Shown here: piece by piece, positions 40,326 to 61,438 of the stretch
How the letters are laid out: every line of letters starts with the position of its first letter
Position numbering within the stretch: the stretch's first letter is position 1
Source of the DNA: Quadrisphaera sp. RL12-1S
GTDB taxonomy: Bacteria > Actinomycetota > Actinomycetes > Actinomycetales > Quadrisphaeraceae
Assembly (NCBI RefSeq): GCF_014270065.1
Contig: NZ_JACNME010000004.1
Location: 248,001-312,000, forward strand
Direction of reading: 5' to 3'
Length of the DNA stretch: 64,000 nucleotides
Program-made: the position numbers and the translations under genes
The notes under the pieces: model-generated
Databases searched by the model: none
Seen by the model: only the letters and a program-made list of their open reading frames with translations
Told to the model about the DNA's origin: nothing

Positions 40326-41159
40326 TCACGGGACCACTGTGCTCACCGCCCGCGGGCCGCGGTCGGCCCGGGCCACCCCGACGGCCCCCGGTGCGTTGGT
40401 CGGGACGTCGAACTGGCCCAGGACCGTGGTCCCGTCGGAGGCGTAGACGGGGATCTCCACGACGACGACGGGGCGCGCGTACCAAGCGGCGGCGTCCTCG
40501 GGCGAGGTGGGGCCCGTCCCGTGCGCCGCATCGAACTCGCTCGTGCGGAAGTAGCCCTGGACGCCGTTGGTGGCGACCGCGGCCAGCAGGTCGGGTCGAG
40601 CGCCGTCCTCCTTCTGCGTGCCGTACGTCTCCCCGCGGGCGTTGACCGCCCAGTCGGTCTGCTCGCGGTGGACGTAGGTCATGGACAGCCCCCACCGCAT
40701 GCCGGCGGGGGCGGTGAACACCAGCGGTGCCCCGTCCGGCGGGAGGTCCAGGACGCCGATCGGGCTGGGACCGCCGAGGGCTCCGTCGCAGGTGCTCGAC
40801 GACCCGTCGGGCCACTGGAGGGTGCCCGCGTCGAGGCAGGAGACGGTCACCTCGACGCTGGTCGCACCGGTGGGCGCGTCGTCGGTGGGGATGCTGGCGG
40901 AGCCGGTGCGCGTGCTCTGGAGCACCGGGCCGAGGGCGGCGTCGCGAGGAGCCCCCGGCAGCCAGGACGACTGCAGGGGTGACCACCCGCTCGCACCGGC
41001 CACCCCGGCACCGGCCGCTGCCACCACCAGCACGCCGAGCCCCGTCACCGCCGGTCGGCGCCAGCGGTGGCGGCCAGGTCGGGCGCCAGCGCGCACGCGC
41101 TCGACGAGAGCACCGCGCAGGGCGCGGGCGAACCGCGGGTCGAGGGTGGGTCCGCTCAA
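40326..41159 (-). CDS. Membrane protein paired with ECF sigma factor (probable anti-sigma or sensor)
   Basis: 277 residues from TTG 41159, whose last bases overlap the sigma stop (TTGA). Short cytoplasmic part with RHRWRRP, one transmembrane helix (about 37-56), and an extracytoplasmic domain of about 215 residues with two cysteines (about 110 and 126) and many Asp/Gly/Thr. The coupling to a sigma gene and the topology fit a membrane partner of the sigma factor. No zinc-finger anti-sigma motif is present, so the role is inferred from position. Confidence 0.65.
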   Translation of the reverse strand: MSGPTLDPRFARALRGALVERVRAGARPGRHRWRRPAVTGLGVLVVAAAGAGVAGASGWSPLQSSWLPGAPRDAALGPVLQSTRTGSASIPTDDAPTGATSVEVTVSCLDAGTLQWPDGSSSTCDGALGGPSPIGVLDLPPDGAPLVFTAPAGMRWGLSMTYVHREQTDWAVNARGETYGTQKEDGARPDLLAAVATNGVQGYFRTSEFDAAHGTGPTSPEDAAAWYARPVVVVEIPVYASDGTTVLGQFDVPTNAPGAVGVARADRGPRAVSTVVP

Positions 41160-41776
41160 CGTCGTCCTCCTGTCGTCCGGGACGGGTCGCTCTCCCGCGC
41201 GGCAGGGCCGGCGCCGGGTGGTCCCTCGTCCGGCTCGCTCATCGCTGCGCGCAGCCGCAGCCGCGCCCGGTGCATCCGGGACTTCGCGGCCTGGGGCGTC
41301 AGGCCCAGCACCGACGCCGCGTCGGCCAGCGGCTGGTCCTCCAGCACCACCAGCGCCACCAACCGCAGGTCTGCGGCGGACAGGCGCGCCAGGGCGTTCG
41401 ACCACCGCTCGTCCACGCGGGAGCTGGCGTGGTCGTCCACCACGGCCTCGGTGCGCGGCAGGCGTGCCAGGAAGGCGCGGTGGCGTCGCAGCCCGCGGGC
41501 GTGGTTGCGCGCCAGGTTGGTGGTGGTGACGAGCAGCCACGGCAGCAGCGACCCCGAGACGACGCGGGCGTCCCGGCGGCGGCGCCACAGCTCCAGGAAC
41601 GCCCCCGCCGTGAGGTCCTCCGCGTCGTGGGCGTCCGCGGTCAGCCGGTGGGCGTGGCGGTGGACCCGTGCTTGGTGGCGGTCGAAGAGCAGCGCGAAGG
41701 CCTCACCGTCTCCGGTGAGGCTGCGCTCCCACAGGGGGGTGTCGTCGAGGCCCTCCACACGCAGGAGTGTCCGCAC
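41156..41776 (-). CDS. ECF-type RNA polymerase sigma factor
   Basis: 206 residues. Region 2 spans about 24-90 (AFALLFDRHQARVHRHAHRL, split here by position) with the -10 recognition part DAEDLTAGAFLELWRRR (about 51-67). Region 4 spans about 125-180 with LRLVALVVLEDQPLADAASVL and an HTH ending QAAKSRMHRARLRLR (about 163-177). A Pro/Ala/Arg tail follows. Target promoters unknown. A hairpin CCGCACC/GGTGCGG (41771-41788) covers its start codon and might tune translation. Coupled to the membrane protein gene. Confidence 0.88.
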   Translation of the reverse strand: MRTLLRVEGLDDTPLWERSLTGDGEAFALLFDRHQARVHRHAHRLTADAHDAEDLTAGAFLELWRRRRDARVVSGSLLPWLLVTTTNLARNHARGLRRHRAFLARLPRTEAVVDDHASSRVDERWSNALARLSAADLRLVALVVLEDQPLADAASVLGLTPQAAKSRMHRARLRLRAAMSEPDEGPPGAGPAARESDPSRTTGGRR

Positions 41777-42002
41777 CCGCCGGTGCGGTTCCGCGCGTTC
41801 CGCGGATCTTGCGCGGCGGTCGGGCCGTCGAAGGGCACTGTCCGGCAGCCGTCACTCCCTGGTGCGGCACGACCGTGGTGACGATCGGCTCGACGCGCGA
41901 GATCGGCAGCCGTGGGGGAGGCTCTGCGGGAGCGCCGGCGCCCGCCGGCCGCGGCCGGGCCCGTGCCCGGCCGTTCCTGCGACCTCCAGAGAACGAGGCC
42001 CC

Positions 42003-42386
42003 GTGCGCCGCCCGCTCGACGCCGAACTGACCCGTGACCGGGACGTGGAGGTCCTCCACCTCGACGGTGACCTCGACCTCCAGGCGGCACCGGAGCTGCG
42101 GGCGTGGTCCGCGCGGCTGCTGGCCGAGCCGGAGGACGGATCGGCTCGGGCCACGGCCGTGGTCGTCGACCTCACCGCGGTGCCGTTCGTCGACTCCACC
42201 GGTGTGGGCGCCCTGCTGTCGGTGCTGCGCGACGTGCGCGGCCGCGGGGGAGACCTCGTGCTCGCCGGGCCCAACCACGAGCTGCGCCACCTGCTCGCCT
42301 CGCTGGGGCTGCCGGCCGTGCTCGAGGTCTTCGAGACGCGCGAGCAGGCCCTGGAGCAGGTCCGCCAGCAGGGCGCCTCGGAGTGA
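42003..42386 (+). CDS. STAS-domain anti-sigma factor antagonist
   Basis: 127 residues. SpoIIAA/RsbV-type STAS fold: VLHLDGDLDLQAAPELR (about 18-34) and the phosphorylatable serine in VPFVDSTGVGALL (S65). In partner-switching, the dephosphorylated form frees a sigma factor from its HATPase anti-sigma. It is translationally coupled (GTGA) to the LOV-SpoIIE phosphatase gene, the enzyme expected to dephosphorylate S65. GTG start at 42003 with weak GAACGAGG upstream. Confidence 0.88.
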   Translation: MRRPLDAELTRDRDVEVLHLDGDLDLQAAPELRAWSARLLAEPEDGSARATAVVVDLTAVPFVDSTGVGALLSVLRDVRGRGGDLVLAGPNHELRHLLASLGLPAVLEVFETREQALEQVRQQGASE

Positions 42387-44737
42387 GCGCCGACGGCCCT
42401 GTGCCGGAGGCCACCTCGACCGGTGACCCCTTCGACGAGGCCGTCCTGGCCCTCGACCTGACCGGCGGCGACCGCCTGGTCCTGCCGCGGGGCGTGGCGC
42501 AGGTGCGCCCCGACGCCCCGGCCGCGGTGTTGGTGGTGGACCTCGCCGGCCGGCGGGTGCTCTACGCCAACGAGGTGGCCGGCCAGCTGGCCCCCGGGCT
42601 GCACCTGCCCGTCCCCGTGGAGGAGTGGGCGGCCGCCGCCGACCTGCGCGACCTCGACGGCGACCAGCTGGACGAGACCGCGCACCCGCTGTCGCGCATC
42701 GCCCGCTTCGAGCCGGTCGCCGGGCAGGGCGTCTCCGCCGCCCGCCGGTCGGACCTCGGGCGCAGCCGCGAGCCGCTGTGGGTGGTGGCCCTTCCCCTCG
42801 ACGACGCCCCTGACCTGCAGGGACGCGCACTGGTGGTGTTCCTGCCCGTGCGCGACCGGGAGGAGATGCAGCAGCGAGCCGCCGAGGCGCACGGGCGTGC
42901 GTCGTCGTCGACCTCCACCGGCCGCACGTCCGCGGTCTCCGTGAGGGAGGCCGCCGTGCTGGCCACCGGCCTGTCCTTCACGGTGGCGGACGCGCGGGAG
43001 CCGGACCTGCCGCTGGTGTGGGTGAACCCCGCCTTCACGGCGGTCACCGGGTACACCTTCGAGCAGGCCGTCGGGCGCAACTGCCGCTTCCTCCAGGGGC
43101 CCGGCACGGACCGCACCGCCACGCTGCGGATGAGGGAGGCTCTGGAGACCGGGCGCTCCATCACCCAGGTGCTGCTCAACTACCGCGCCGACGGCACCGC
43201 CTTCTGGAACCAGGTGGCGATGAGCCCCGTCGTCGACGCCGACGGCCAGGTCACGCACTACGTGGGCATCCAGACCGACGTGTCCGGGCGGATCGCCGCC
43301 GACGCCGAGCGCGACCGCGCCCTGGCCGCTGAGCAGGCCGCCCGCGCCGACGCCGAGCTGGCCAACTCCCGCCTGCAGCTGCTCGCGGAGGTGACGCGGC
43401 AGCTGTCGGAGGTGACCGACGCGCAGGCCGCGGTGGACCGGCTCGCGCACCTCGTGGTGCCGGGGCTCGGGGACTTCGCGATGGTCGCCGTGGTGGGGGA
43501 CGACACCTCCGTGGCCGCCCAGCCCCCGGACGACGACGGCGGAGCGGGCGCGACCCCGGCCTCACGGCGCCGCCACGGCCTGCGCGACGTCGCCTGGTGG
43601 CACCACGACGGCACCCGCCTCGACCTCGTGCGCGTGGTGGCGCAGCGCCGGCTGGACGAGCTCAGCGGCGAGGGGCAGCGCGTGCTGCAGTCGCTGCTGG
43701 GACCGGGGGCGTTGACCGTGGCGGCGCCCGGCACCACCGAGGACGGTCGCCCGGTGCTGGATCGTCTGGCGGGGCTGCTGCGGCCCGGCCCCTCGCGCGA
43801 CGCGCTGCTGGAGCTGGCGCCCTCGTCCATGGCGACCTGGTCGCTGCGCAGCGCCGGGCGCACGCTGGGCCTGCTCACGGTGGGCACGGACGCCGAGCGC
43901 GCACCCCTGACGGCGCGCGACGTCGACCTGGGGGCCGACATCGCCGCCCGCGCCGGCCTGGCGCTGGACCGGTCCCGGCTCTTCCGCCAGCAGCGCGACC
44001 TCGCGGAGGGCCTGCAGCGCTCGCTGCTGACGCTGTCGCCGGGGGCCGTGCCCGGCCACGTGAACGTGGCCGTCCGCTACGTGGCGGCCGCCGAGGCCGC
44101 GCGCGTGGGCGGCGACTTCTACGACGTCTTCACCCAGCCGTCGGGGGCGGCCGTCGCGGTCATCGGCGACGTCATGGGCCACGACACCGACGCCGCCGCC
44201 TCGATGGCGCAGCTGCGCTCCACCGTGCGCACGCTGGGGATGCTCACCGACGACGGCCCCGCCGAGGTGCTGCGCCGCGCTGACGCGCTGATGCGCGCCT
44301 CCGGGATGGACACCACCGCCACCGCCGCCGTGGTGCGGCTGCCCGAGCCGGACGCTCCCGGCGCCGAGCAGGCGCCCGTGCTCGTGGAGTGGTCGAACGC
44401 CGGCCACCCGCCGCCGCTGGTCCTCGACGACGACGGCGGCGTGCGCCTGCTCACGGCGCCCGCCACGGACCTCCTGCTGGGCGTCGACCCGGGCACCGCG
44501 AGGCGGCAGACGCAGCACCCGCTGCGGGTGGGCGCGACGCTGCTGCTCTACACCGACGGGCTGGTGGAGCGCCGCGACATGCCGCTGCAGCAGGGCATCG
44601 CACGGCTGCAGGAGGTCGTGGCGCGGGTGGCCCCGCAGGCCGTCGACCACCACCAGCTGCTCGACCTCGTGCTCGCCGAGATGCTGCCGGAGGTCGCCAC
44701 CGACGACGTGGCCGTGGTGGCGCTCTGCCTCACCTGA
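42383..44737 (+). CDS. Blue-light LOV-GAF-SpoIIE phosphatase
   Basis: 784 residues. Order: an N-terminal PAS-like domain (about 25-170); a LOV domain (about 195-300); a short coiled coil; a GAF-like domain (about 335-530); and a SpoIIE/PP2C phosphatase (about 545-784). The LOV signature GRNCRFLQG is complete, with the photoactive Cys at 234, followed by the flavin-contact Arg, the two Asn of NYRADGTAFWN and the Gln of VGIQTD. The phosphatase has GGDFYDV, GDVMGHD, SNAGHPPPL, YTDGLVE and DDVAVV metal motifs. Expected role: light-controlled dephosphorylation of the coupled STAS protein. Confidence 0.93.
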   Translation: MSADGPVPEATSTGDPFDEAVLALDLTGGDRLVLPRGVAQVRPDAPAAVLVVDLAGRRVLYANEVAGQLAPGLHLPVPVEEWAAAADLRDLDGDQLDETAHPLSRIARFEPVAGQGVSAARRSDLGRSREPLWVVALPLDDAPDLQGRALVVFLPVRDREEMQQRAAEAHGRASSSTSTGRTSAVSVREAAVLATGLSFTVADAREPDLPLVWVNPAFTAVTGYTFEQAVGRNCRFLQGPGTDRTATLRMREALETGRSITQVLLNYRADGTAFWNQVAMSPVVDADGQVTHYVGIQTDVSGRIAADAERDRALAAEQAARADAELANSRLQLLAEVTRQLSEVTDAQAAVDRLAHLVVPGLGDFAMVAVVGDDTSVAAQPPDDDGGAGATPASRRRHGLRDVAWWHHDGTRLDLVRVVAQRRLDELSGEGQRVLQSLLGPGALTVAAPGTTEDGRPVLDRLAGLLRPGPSRDALLELAPSSMATWSLRSAGRTLGLLTVGTDAERAPLTARDVDLGADIAARAGLALDRSRLFRQQRDLAEGLQRSLLTLSPGAVPGHVNVAVRYVAAAEAARVGGDFYDVFTQPSGAAVAVIGDVMGHDTDAAASMAQLRSTVRTLGMLTDDGPAEVLRRADALMRASGMDTTATAAVVRLPEPDAPGAEQAPVLVEWSNAGHPPPLVLDDDGGVRLLTAPATDLLLGVDPGTARRQTQHPLRVGATLLLYTDGLVERRDMPLQQGIARLQEVVARVAPQAVDHHQLLDLVLAEMLPEVATDDVAVVALCLT

Positions 44738-58074: not shown

Positions 58075-58644
58075 CTAGCCCGCGGCGGCCCTGGGCACCG
58101 CGTGGACGGCGGCGAAGCTCGGAGCACCGGTCTGCCGCTGGCCCGTCGGGCCGCTCGGCTGCGCACGCGTGCGGCGCTCGCGGCCGGCGGCCCGCGTCAG
58201 CGGCTGGGCGCTGTGGGCGAGGGTGAACCAGACGACGTGGCGCTCGCCGGGAGCCGCGTTGCCGCGGTCGTCGTCGTCGACCTGCTCCAGCTGGCTGCCC
58301 CACCGGTCGGACAGGAGCCCGAACAGCGGCAGGCCGCGCCCTCCGAGGTGACGTGTGGCCGGCATGGGAGAGCTCTCGCAGCGCGACGGCGGCAGGGGCG
58401 AGGTGCCGGCGTCGACCACCTCGATGCCGAGCAGCTCGTCGTCGTCGGCGATGCGCACCAGGACCGGGGCGCTGGGTGCGTGGCGCACCGCGTTGGTCAC
58501 GGCCTCGGTGGCGAGCAGGAGCGCTGCGTGCAGCACCTGCGGGCTCCACGAGGTGCCGACGGCGGAGAGGTGGGCGCGCACGGTGCGGGCGGCGCCGTCG
58601 TCGTGGGGGAGGTTGAGGAACGACCTCACGCACTGTGAACCCAT
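58075..58644 (-). CDS. HATPase anti-sigma factor-like protein (RsbW/SpoIIAB type)
   Basis: 189 residues from ATG 58644. GHKL ATPase fold: N-box EAVTNAVRHA (about 51-60), the G1 aspartate in VVDAGTSPLP (about 80-89) and a G2 loop GGRGLPLFG (about 104-112). C-terminal about 45 residues are Arg/Ala/Pro-rich. Such proteins phosphorylate STAS antagonists or bind sigma factors. There is no sigma gene beside it; two STAS genes (42.0 and 61.1 kb) and the LOV-SpoIIE phosphatase are candidates for the same circuit. Confidence 0.82.
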   Translation of the reverse strand: MGSQCVRSFLNLPHDDGAARTVRAHLSAVGTSWSPQVLHAALLLATEAVTNAVRHAPSAPVLVRIADDDELLGIEVVDAGTSPLPPSRCESSPMPATRHLGGRGLPLFGLLSDRWGSQLEQVDDDDRGNAAPGERHVVWFTLAHSAQPLTRAAGRERRTRAQPSGPTGQRQTGAPSFAAVHAVPRAAAG

Positions 58645-58995
58645 CGCTGACCGCCCCCGCTGCTGCAGCTGTCCCACGTCGAGGATGCTCGCTGTGCGTG
58701 ACGCAGACCACTCGAAACGCCCCCTTCATCCGTAAGGCGACGGTGGGTGACGCTCCGGTGGTGTCGCCCTCCGGCGGCGCGGGGCGCCTGAGGTGACGTG
58801 ATCATGCCCCGACCTGTCGGAACCCTGCCCCGACGTGTCGGAACCCTGCCCCGACGTGTCGGAACCCTGCCCCGACGTGTCGGAACCCTGCCCCGACGTG
58901 TCGGAACCCCGTCCCCGTTCCGACAGCTCCAGCCGGGGTTCCGGCACCTCGGGACGGCTGCGGGCACGCACGTGCCCCTCGCGGGCCCGCAGGAC
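58645..58995. other. 351-base gap holding repeats upstream of the HATPase gene
   Basis: No real gene is seen. It contains GTGATCATG (58798-58806, the dispersed repeat core), a 21-base tandem array (58810-58915) and an inverted pair CGGAACCCC (58902-58910) / GGGGTTCCG (58935-58943). Confidence 0.6.
58810..58915. repeat. Five-unit 21-base tandem repeat with an internal palindrome
   Basis: Units begin at 58810, 58831, 58852, 58873 and 58894. Each is CGACGTGTCGG plus AACCCTGCCC; unit 1 has CCTG for CGTG and unit 5 diverges at its end. Each carries CCGAC-GT-GTCGG, a perfect 5-base inverted repeat around two bases. Confidence 0.9.
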
Positions 58996-61090: not shown

Positions 61091-61438
61091 ATGACCCTGC
61101 GCATCGACCACGACGTCCGCGACGGCGTGGACGTGCTCACCGTCCACGGCGACGTCGACCTGTACTCGGCCCCCGCCCTGCGCCAGCGCCTGCTCGACGT
61201 CATCGGTGAGGACCGCCACGACGTGGTCGTGGACCTCGCGCACGTCCCCTTCATCGACTCCCTCGGGCTGGGCGTGCTCGTGGGAGGGCTCCGACGTGCC
61301 CGCTCGGGCGGCGGTGACCTCCGGCTCGCCGGCCCGAACGAGCTCACCACCCGGGTGCTGCGGGCCACGGGCCTGACGACGGCGTTCCACATCCACCCCG
61401 ACGTCGACACCGCGCTCGAGCACCGCTCGGCCAGCTGA
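61091..61438 (+). CDS. STAS-domain anti-sigma factor antagonist
   Basis: 115 residues, GGAGAGGGGAGCGGC ribosome site. SpoIIAA-type fold with VLTVHGDVDLYSAPALRQRL (about 15-34) and the phospho-acceptor Ser57 in VPFIDSLGLGVL. Second STAS protein of the window. It stands alone, without phosphatase or anti-sigma partner beside it, so it must work with distant partners such as the HATPase protein at 58.1 kb. Confidence 0.9.
   Translation: MTLRIDHDVRDGVDVLTVHGDVDLYSAPALRQRLLDVIGEDRHDVVVDLAHVPFIDSLGLGVLVGGLRRARSGGGDLRLAGPNELTTRVLRATGLTTAFHIHPDVDTALEHRSAS

Follow-up and report, generated by a model that had tools for sequence, protein, structure and literature searches.

A STAS gene overlapping a predicted PAS-LOV-GAF-SpoIIE phosphatase gene in Quadrisphaera: a candidate blue-light input to partner switching

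The gene pair and the domains of its products

The window analyzed here, a 64,000-nucleotide stretch of contig NZ_JACNME010000004.1 from Quadrisphaera sp. RL12-1S, carries two overlapping genes on the forward strand. The first encodes a STAS-domain protein of the anti-sigma factor antagonist family (positions 42003–42386, 127 amino acids, GTG start), and the second encodes a predicted PAS-LOV-GAF-SpoIIE phosphatase (42383–44737, 784 amino acids, GTG start). The phosphatase start lies within the end of the STAS gene, in a GTGA overlap (42383–42386) that combines the stop codon of one gene with the GTG start of the other. Both this overlap and the GTG start of the STAS gene are kept in all four direct orthologues, the window's own genes counted, which bears out the coupling of the two genes claimed in a preliminary description of the locus. 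The RNA fold at the gene junction is ordinary (z 0.18). Searches on the two genes also covered the organism's own genome of 4,619,041 bases.

The STAS protein matches PF01740 with an E-value of 2.2e-21, and its score of 65.9 bits against TIGR00377 (anti-sigma factor antagonist) exceeds the cut-off of 53.45. Its expected phosphorylation site is Ser65 in the sequence FVDSTGVG (42195–42197, forward strand), a residue that is unchanged in all nine aligned STAS neighbours. We take Ser65 to be the position equivalent to Ser56 of RsbV and Ser58 of SpoIIAA. These are the serines on which RsbV and SpoIIAA are phosphorylated (PMC11418112).

The preliminary description had assigned PAS, LOV, GAF and SpoIIE domains to the phosphatase, and each of them can be placed on the forward strand. 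The LOV domain (residues ~197–300, 42971–43282) gives a strong Pfam PAS/LOV match at residues 207–301 and contains the motif GRNCRFLQG. The cysteine of this motif, expected to form the flavin adduct, is residue 234 (codon TGC, 43082–43084), exactly as first numbered, and the best PDB sequence matches are LOV domains. The SpoIIE/PPM phosphatase domain occupies residues ~555–784 (44045–44737 with the stop codon), with a match to PF07228 at residues 587–782 (E 3.6e-35, 122.1 bits against a cut-off of 25). In an alignment of 41 family members, Asp residues D578, D596 and D725 are present in every row, and D774 is present in all 30 rows that reach it, the remaining 11 rows being gapped. These four residues are presumably the metal-binding aspartates of PPM phosphatases. 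The N-terminal PAS domain (residues ~45–156, 42515–42850) gives a weak match to PAS_8 (residues 45–69, 22.2 bits), and PAS_8 is matched by 38 of the 41 family members. For the divergent GAF domain (residues ~347–505, 43421–43897), there is no Pfam match in the protein itself, and PF01590 is matched by 29 of the 41 members.

An AlphaFold2 model was built from the 41 family sequences. It has a mean predicted local distance difference test score of 83.8 and a predicted template modelling score of 0.55, so that the modelled domains are credible, and their placement relative to each other is not. The model has a PAS-like domain (48–156), the LOV domain (197–299), a predicted single helix (301–342, positions 43283–43408), a GAF-like domain (347–505), a second helix (511–548, 43913–44026) and the phosphatase, in this order. 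The GAF-like order of helices and strands was judged by eye. A Foldseek search with the whole model returned the RsbU-RsbW part of Rv1364c (3ke6) as the top match by E-value, and the LOV part superimposes on LOV structures with a root mean square deviation of 0.6 Å over ~105 columns.

The residues expected of a working LOV domain are conserved in the relatives aligned. The cysteine is present in all 20 proteins of an alignment that comprised the window's protein, those of 12 same-genus loci and seven from other genera of the same taxonomic family; one further match (L115), which has no LOV part, was omitted. A wider set comprised 338 related loci, and in the best 80 of these the residues were checked by alignment. 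The search patterns of this set, LVWVNPAF and R[AK]DGTAFW, select LOV-like sequences, and the cysteine is not part of either. In the best 80 of 338, N233, C234, Q238, N266, N276 and Q297 are kept in all 80, and R235 is kept in 78. We take N266, N276 and Q297 to be the flavin-contact residues. The spacing between C234 and D299 is identical in all 41 rows of the family alignment.

From these sequences, the LOV domain is very probably photoactive, and it is likely that the phosphatase is light-regulated. A LOV domain that serves in the cell as a redox or constitutive module would be an alternative, since the light response is predicted from sequence and the PAS and GAF domains could be physiological sensors. 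The retention of the cysteine and five other LOV residues in all of the best 80, together with the invariant C234–D299 spacing, makes this improbable.

The domain arrangement is kept in relatives down to ~39% identity, which is more than chance would give. Among named records, the genome is closest to those of Quadrisphaera granulorum and Quadrisphaera sp. INWT6 and to one titled Streptomyces sp. NP160. Hosts of the protein family beyond Quadrisphaera include Kineococcus, Pseudokineococcus, Cellulomonas, Actinotalea, Geodermatophilaceae and Actinomycetospora. Two records titled Streptomyces sp. NP160 (L133) and Bacillus sp. AZ43 (L204) encode proteins that group with those of Quadrisphaera and Geodermatophilaceae, and their titles look wrong. 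No plasmid-borne relatives were found at an E-value of 1e-60.

A LOV-to-GAF linker that varies in steps of seven

The length of the linker between LOV and GAF domains was read from sequence anchors in 100 of 101 proteins, the exception being L115, which has no LOV motif. The 100 readings include genes met twice and represent 87 distinct proteins. The linkers are 25, 32, 39, 46, 53, 60 or 67 residues long, and all 100 fall into a single class modulo 7 (class 4). With a fixed pattern, both anchors could be located in 77 proteins (67 unique), all in class 4, and a looser pattern with a downstream check gave class 4 in 90 of 90. The 100 readings are made up of the 77 from the fixed pattern, 13 from the looser pattern with the check, nine from the looser pattern alone, and L143, whose value of 25 is a script default that agrees with a count by eye. 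Earlier and stricter patterns, which were loosened afterwards, had located the second anchor in 28 of the 71 proteins they read.

The same periodicity is found in the alignment of 41 relatives, where the distance from D299 to L331 is 26, 33, 40, 47, 54, 61 or 68 residues. From D299 to P360, a single row among the 41 deviates by one residue (63), so the rule of sevens holds for the helix and not for the whole stretch. The PAS-to-LOV interval, used as a control, varies freely in the 41 relatives and occupies six of the seven classes modulo 7; measured by pattern, it could be read in 48 of the 100 proteins and is spread over all seven classes. Between the GAF and SpoIIE domains, the spacing from D529 to L549, in and just after the second helix, is fixed in all 41 rows. 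As a further control we took 20 stretches encoding non-LOV PAS-GAF-SpoIIE proteins. A candidate frame was obtained in 11 of these, at least one of which (L219) is plainly a wrong frame. One of the stretches (L222) has both kinds of anchor, 129 residues apart and in class 3 modulo 7, a distance too large to be equated with the LOV-GAF interval.

A quick tree of the 87 distinct proteins, for which the linker itself was left out, puts the number of changes in linker length at 18 or more. In this tree 22 of 84 inner branches have less than 80% support and long-branch warnings were given, and the figure of 18 is a parsimony minimum. If steps were free, the naive chance that at least 18 changes are all multiples of seven would be ~(1/7)^18. 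Among 79 distinct linkers, the hydrophobic fractions at the seven heptad positions are 0.56, 0.28, 0.48, 0.20, 0.96, 0.41 and 0.21, an amplitude reached by none of 1000 shuffles. Alanine accounts for 0.85 at the most hydrophobic position.

These features fit a weak parallel coiled coil, and steps of seven are as expected if such a coiled coil carries the signal. Any coiled coil favours sevens, as does slippage in 21-base units, and what the result shows is phase-locked coupling and not light as such. Coiled-coil linkers have been proposed as a general route by which sensors control PPM phosphatases (PMC12143880). In the LOV kinase YF1, linkers are heptad-periodic and the light response is inverted by one added residue (PMC6798134). 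A similar conservation of length has been noted for LOV-regulated effectors in a paper that also shows phytochromes joined to SpoIIE/PPM domains (PMC9587094). Linkers of phytochrome cyclases differ by multiples of seven in only 54% of cases (PMC9587094), which makes the strictness seen here notable.

The STAS gene as neighbour and putative substrate

Within the genus, LOV-SpoIIE genes were compared at 13 loci, the window and L102–L113. A STAS gene lies directly upstream in nine of the 13 (the window, L102–L108 and L113). Outside the genus, ~3 kb around the gene was checked at 71 loci (L141–L211), and a STAS match was found at two of them: L151, where it is weak and on the opposite strand, and L197. 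A close homologue of the window's STAS protein (E 1e-20) occurs in four of 119 genomes of a sample of the order, its own genome counted, all of this genus. The upstream STAS gene, rare outside the genus and present at most loci inside it, is therefore chiefly a genus-level feature. L197 (1–3598), from a metagenome-assembled genome of the Pseudonocardiales, has three consecutive genes, which encode a HATPase-domain protein, a STAS protein and the LOV-SpoIIE protein, and this locus outside the genus appears by its sequence to hold the switch in a more complete form. HATPase matches were also found in L143, L146, L185, L194 and L206. A stretch from the same taxonomic family (L121) has two STAS matches, of which one is weak, both on the opposite strand.

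A second STAS and LOV-SpoIIE pair is present in the same genome (L102, 5729–8772). The paralogous phosphatase is 65% identical to that of the window and the paralogous STAS protein 34% identical to the window's, and the LOV-GAF linker is longer by 14 residues, that is by two heptads. As judged from these sequences, the pairing of STAS gene and LOV phosphatase gene persists through gene duplication. We consider it reasonably likely that the neighbouring STAS protein is the main substrate of the phosphatase.

The phosphatase could instead be a light-gated hub input to several STAS proteins, the adjacent one being one of many and the pair merely co-expressed. Such an arrangement would accord with the loci that have no adjacent STAS gene, four of 13 inside the genus and 69 of 71 outside it, and with the 14 STAS and 34 HATPase_c_2 matches in the genome. 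The adjacency has outlived duplication, which argues against a hub; STAS proteins at 31–34% identity to the window's, beside phosphatases at 64–66%, fit paired partners and would equally fit a relaxed STAS protein. We regard the hub arrangement as rather unlikely.

Proposed light input and its partners

These sequences are best read as encoding a blue-light-gated phosphatase whose target is the adjacent STAS protein; the operon overlap, the kept LOV residues, the kept STAS serine and the phase-locked linker agree with this. On balance we favour the proposal that the two genes form a light-gated input to a partner switch, in which the phosphatase acts on the STAS protein made beside it. Blue light would induce a LOV flavin adduct at Cys234, and the resulting change would be passed along the parallel coiled-coil helix, through the GAF domain and on by way of the second helix to the SpoIIE domains, which would be paired in a dimer and whose activity would be altered. 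The light effect may raise or lower phosphatase activity. The phosphatase would strip the phosphate from Ser65 of the STAS protein encoded next door, and the unphosphorylated STAS protein would bind a HATPase_c_2 kinase/anti-sigma factor encoded elsewhere in the genome. This binding would change the activity of a client, for which a SigB/F-type sigma factor is the most likely candidate. The chances that a sigma factor is the final client appear about even, and other outputs of the STAS protein are possible.

Several observations weigh against this reading. No STAS match was found at four of the 13 same-genus loci (L109–L112) or within the ~3 kb checked at 69 of the 71 loci outside the genus, where five of the 71 hold less than 2 kb before the LOV motif and absence is less sure; the family thus needs no neighbouring STAS gene. 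Heptad linkers suit any signal and not light alone. The 17 SpoIIE and 14 STAS matches in the genome (16 and 13 over the cut-off, respectively) make cross-talk possible. Beside the pair there is no kinase, anti-sigma factor or SigB/F gene, so that the operon does not join a HATPase kinase/anti-sigma gene and a SigB/F gene as a partner-switching module would; split modules are known, so that only the completeness of the module is put in doubt. No biochemical data were found, and an experimental study of a LOV-SpoIIE phosphatase was not among the literature matches listed, which leave subscription papers mostly outside.

The preliminary description had concluded that light directly frees a sigma factor. 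Its first part, a light-gated phosphatase working on the adjacent STAS protein, stands as the best reading. The sigma step is weakened by the lack of an adjacent kinase/anti-sigma or SigB/F gene and by the absence of the window's own sigma factor gene, of the extracytoplasmic function (ECF) type, from orthologous loci, and is left with candidate kinases and SigB/F genes elsewhere in the genome. There, two SigB/F/G-type genes exceed the cut-off, and 23 of the 34 HATPase_c_2 matches do so, many of which will be histidine kinases. A SigF-like gene lies 12 bases after an RsbW-like gene (L122, 4314–5642). The RsbW-like protein matches RsbW models only over residues 27–74 of 165. It is possibly an anti-sigma factor that has lost its kinase function, its second half having no RsbW match.

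The pair could also control a non-sigma output, such as another HATPase-linked regulator or an enzyme, with no sigma factor freed. The lack of a SigB/F gene beside the pair and the short RsbW match next to the SigF-like gene speak for this. Against it stand the above-cut-off score of the STAS protein as an anti-sigma factor antagonist and the existence of SigB/F/G-type genes in the genome. We judge a non-sigma output possible and the less probable outcome.

The ECF sigma factor gene in the window (41156–41776, reverse strand, SigE-family-like) is divergent from the STAS gene at a distance of 226 bp, and its product would be another conceivable client. A different ECF-type gene is divergent beside the paralogous pair (L102, 9333–9902, with Pfam sigma regions 2 and 4) and is kept at the sister loci L107 (5437–5973) and L108 (5037–5579) at 89% identity, so that three genomes share it, which slightly raises this alternative. 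For the window's ECF gene itself, tblastn (E 0.05) gave no match in any of the 12 LOV-SpoIIE stretches of the genus (L102–L113), the three direct orthologues among them, and the resemblance between the two ECF proteins is very slight (35% over 40 residues, E 0.041). Sigma factors of the SigB/F type are known to be controlled by STAS/RsbW systems, and we know of no such system for ECF sigma factors. The window's divergent ECF gene, which has no counterpart in those 12 stretches at E 0.05, is an unlikely client, and we give the ECF explanation little credence.

A bolder form of the preferred proposal is a dedicated light-phosphatase-STAS switch that works without an intervening stressosome and whose signal passes via the phase-locked, alanine-rich coiled coil. 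We find this form evenly balanced between likely and unlikely. Here, an ECF sigma factor might even be the last element of the chain, because ECF genes are divergent beside both pairs in the genome. Since natural linkers of 25–67 residues keep one heptad phase, a change of one residue would be expected to destroy or reverse the response to light, as reported for YF1.

The proposed system resembles RsbP of Bacillus subtilis, in which a sensor domain and a helical linker control a PPM phosphatase with a STAS substrate: RsbP is a PAS-coiled coil-PPM phosphatase that acts on the STAS protein RsbV (PMC3183031; PMC12143880). RsbP answers energy stress together with RsbQ, whereas the protein described here has a LOV domain with photoactive residues in addition to PAS and GAF domains, and the STAS gene is in the same operon. 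YtvA acts in the stressosome route to SigB. It likewise joins LOV light input to a STAS domain (PMC10949197), but does so in one chain, whereas in the present pair the phosphatase carries the LOV domain and the STAS protein has its own gene. Other LOV receptors share with YF1 a light response that depends on linker length in sevens (PMC6798134, PMC4469895); the output of YF1 is a histidine kinase, in contrast to a PPM phosphatase reached via a GAF domain. Rv1364c, the best fold match of the model (3ke6), is also a partner-switch phosphatase. Its PAS, phosphatase, kinase and STAS domains are all fused in one chain, and its PAS domain is not described as LOV in the available text (PMC12143880).

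SpoIIE-type phosphatases are named in a review among the functions linked to prokaryotic LOV and BLUF domains, with no operon, linker or substrate discussed in its available part (PMC4844311). LOV-SpoIIE proteins and heptad linkers are thus both already described, and the additions made here are a STAS gene in partnership with a LOV phosphatase, the survival of this pairing after duplication, and a phosphatase family whose linker varies strictly by sevens. If the proposal is true, blue light controls Quadrisphaera transcription through a single soluble phosphatase in place of a large stressosome, and the way in which PPM phosphatases receive signals can be tested in a system of two proteins. 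The natural linker series in sevens would make the coiled-coil model proposed for RsbU and RsbP testable with light as a clean on/off signal. The family would then provide a natural light-controlled PPM phosphatase, with evolutionary evidence for a linker rule shared with histidine kinases and cyclases, and tools for dephosphorylation under light control might be developed from it.

Upstream of the STAS gene, the stretch 41889–41930 (forward strand) is conserved in the four orthologous loci and may contain a promoter. It has no sigma-70 consensus, and a promoter and terminator scan found nothing. The ECF gene sits between a metallophosphoesterase gene and the STAS gene, and the frame after it, extending to ~40326, encodes a probable membrane protein by eye, with no family match. 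The window also contains, 16–19 kb from the pair, a HATPase gene (58075–58677, reverse strand) and a second stand-alone STAS gene (61091–61438, forward strand). The HATPase protein is weakly like RsbA anti-sigma regulators. Beside its gene, positions 58805–58917 hold 5.3 copies of the 21-base repeat TGCCCCGACGTGTCGGAACCC, with a near-palindrome in each unit.

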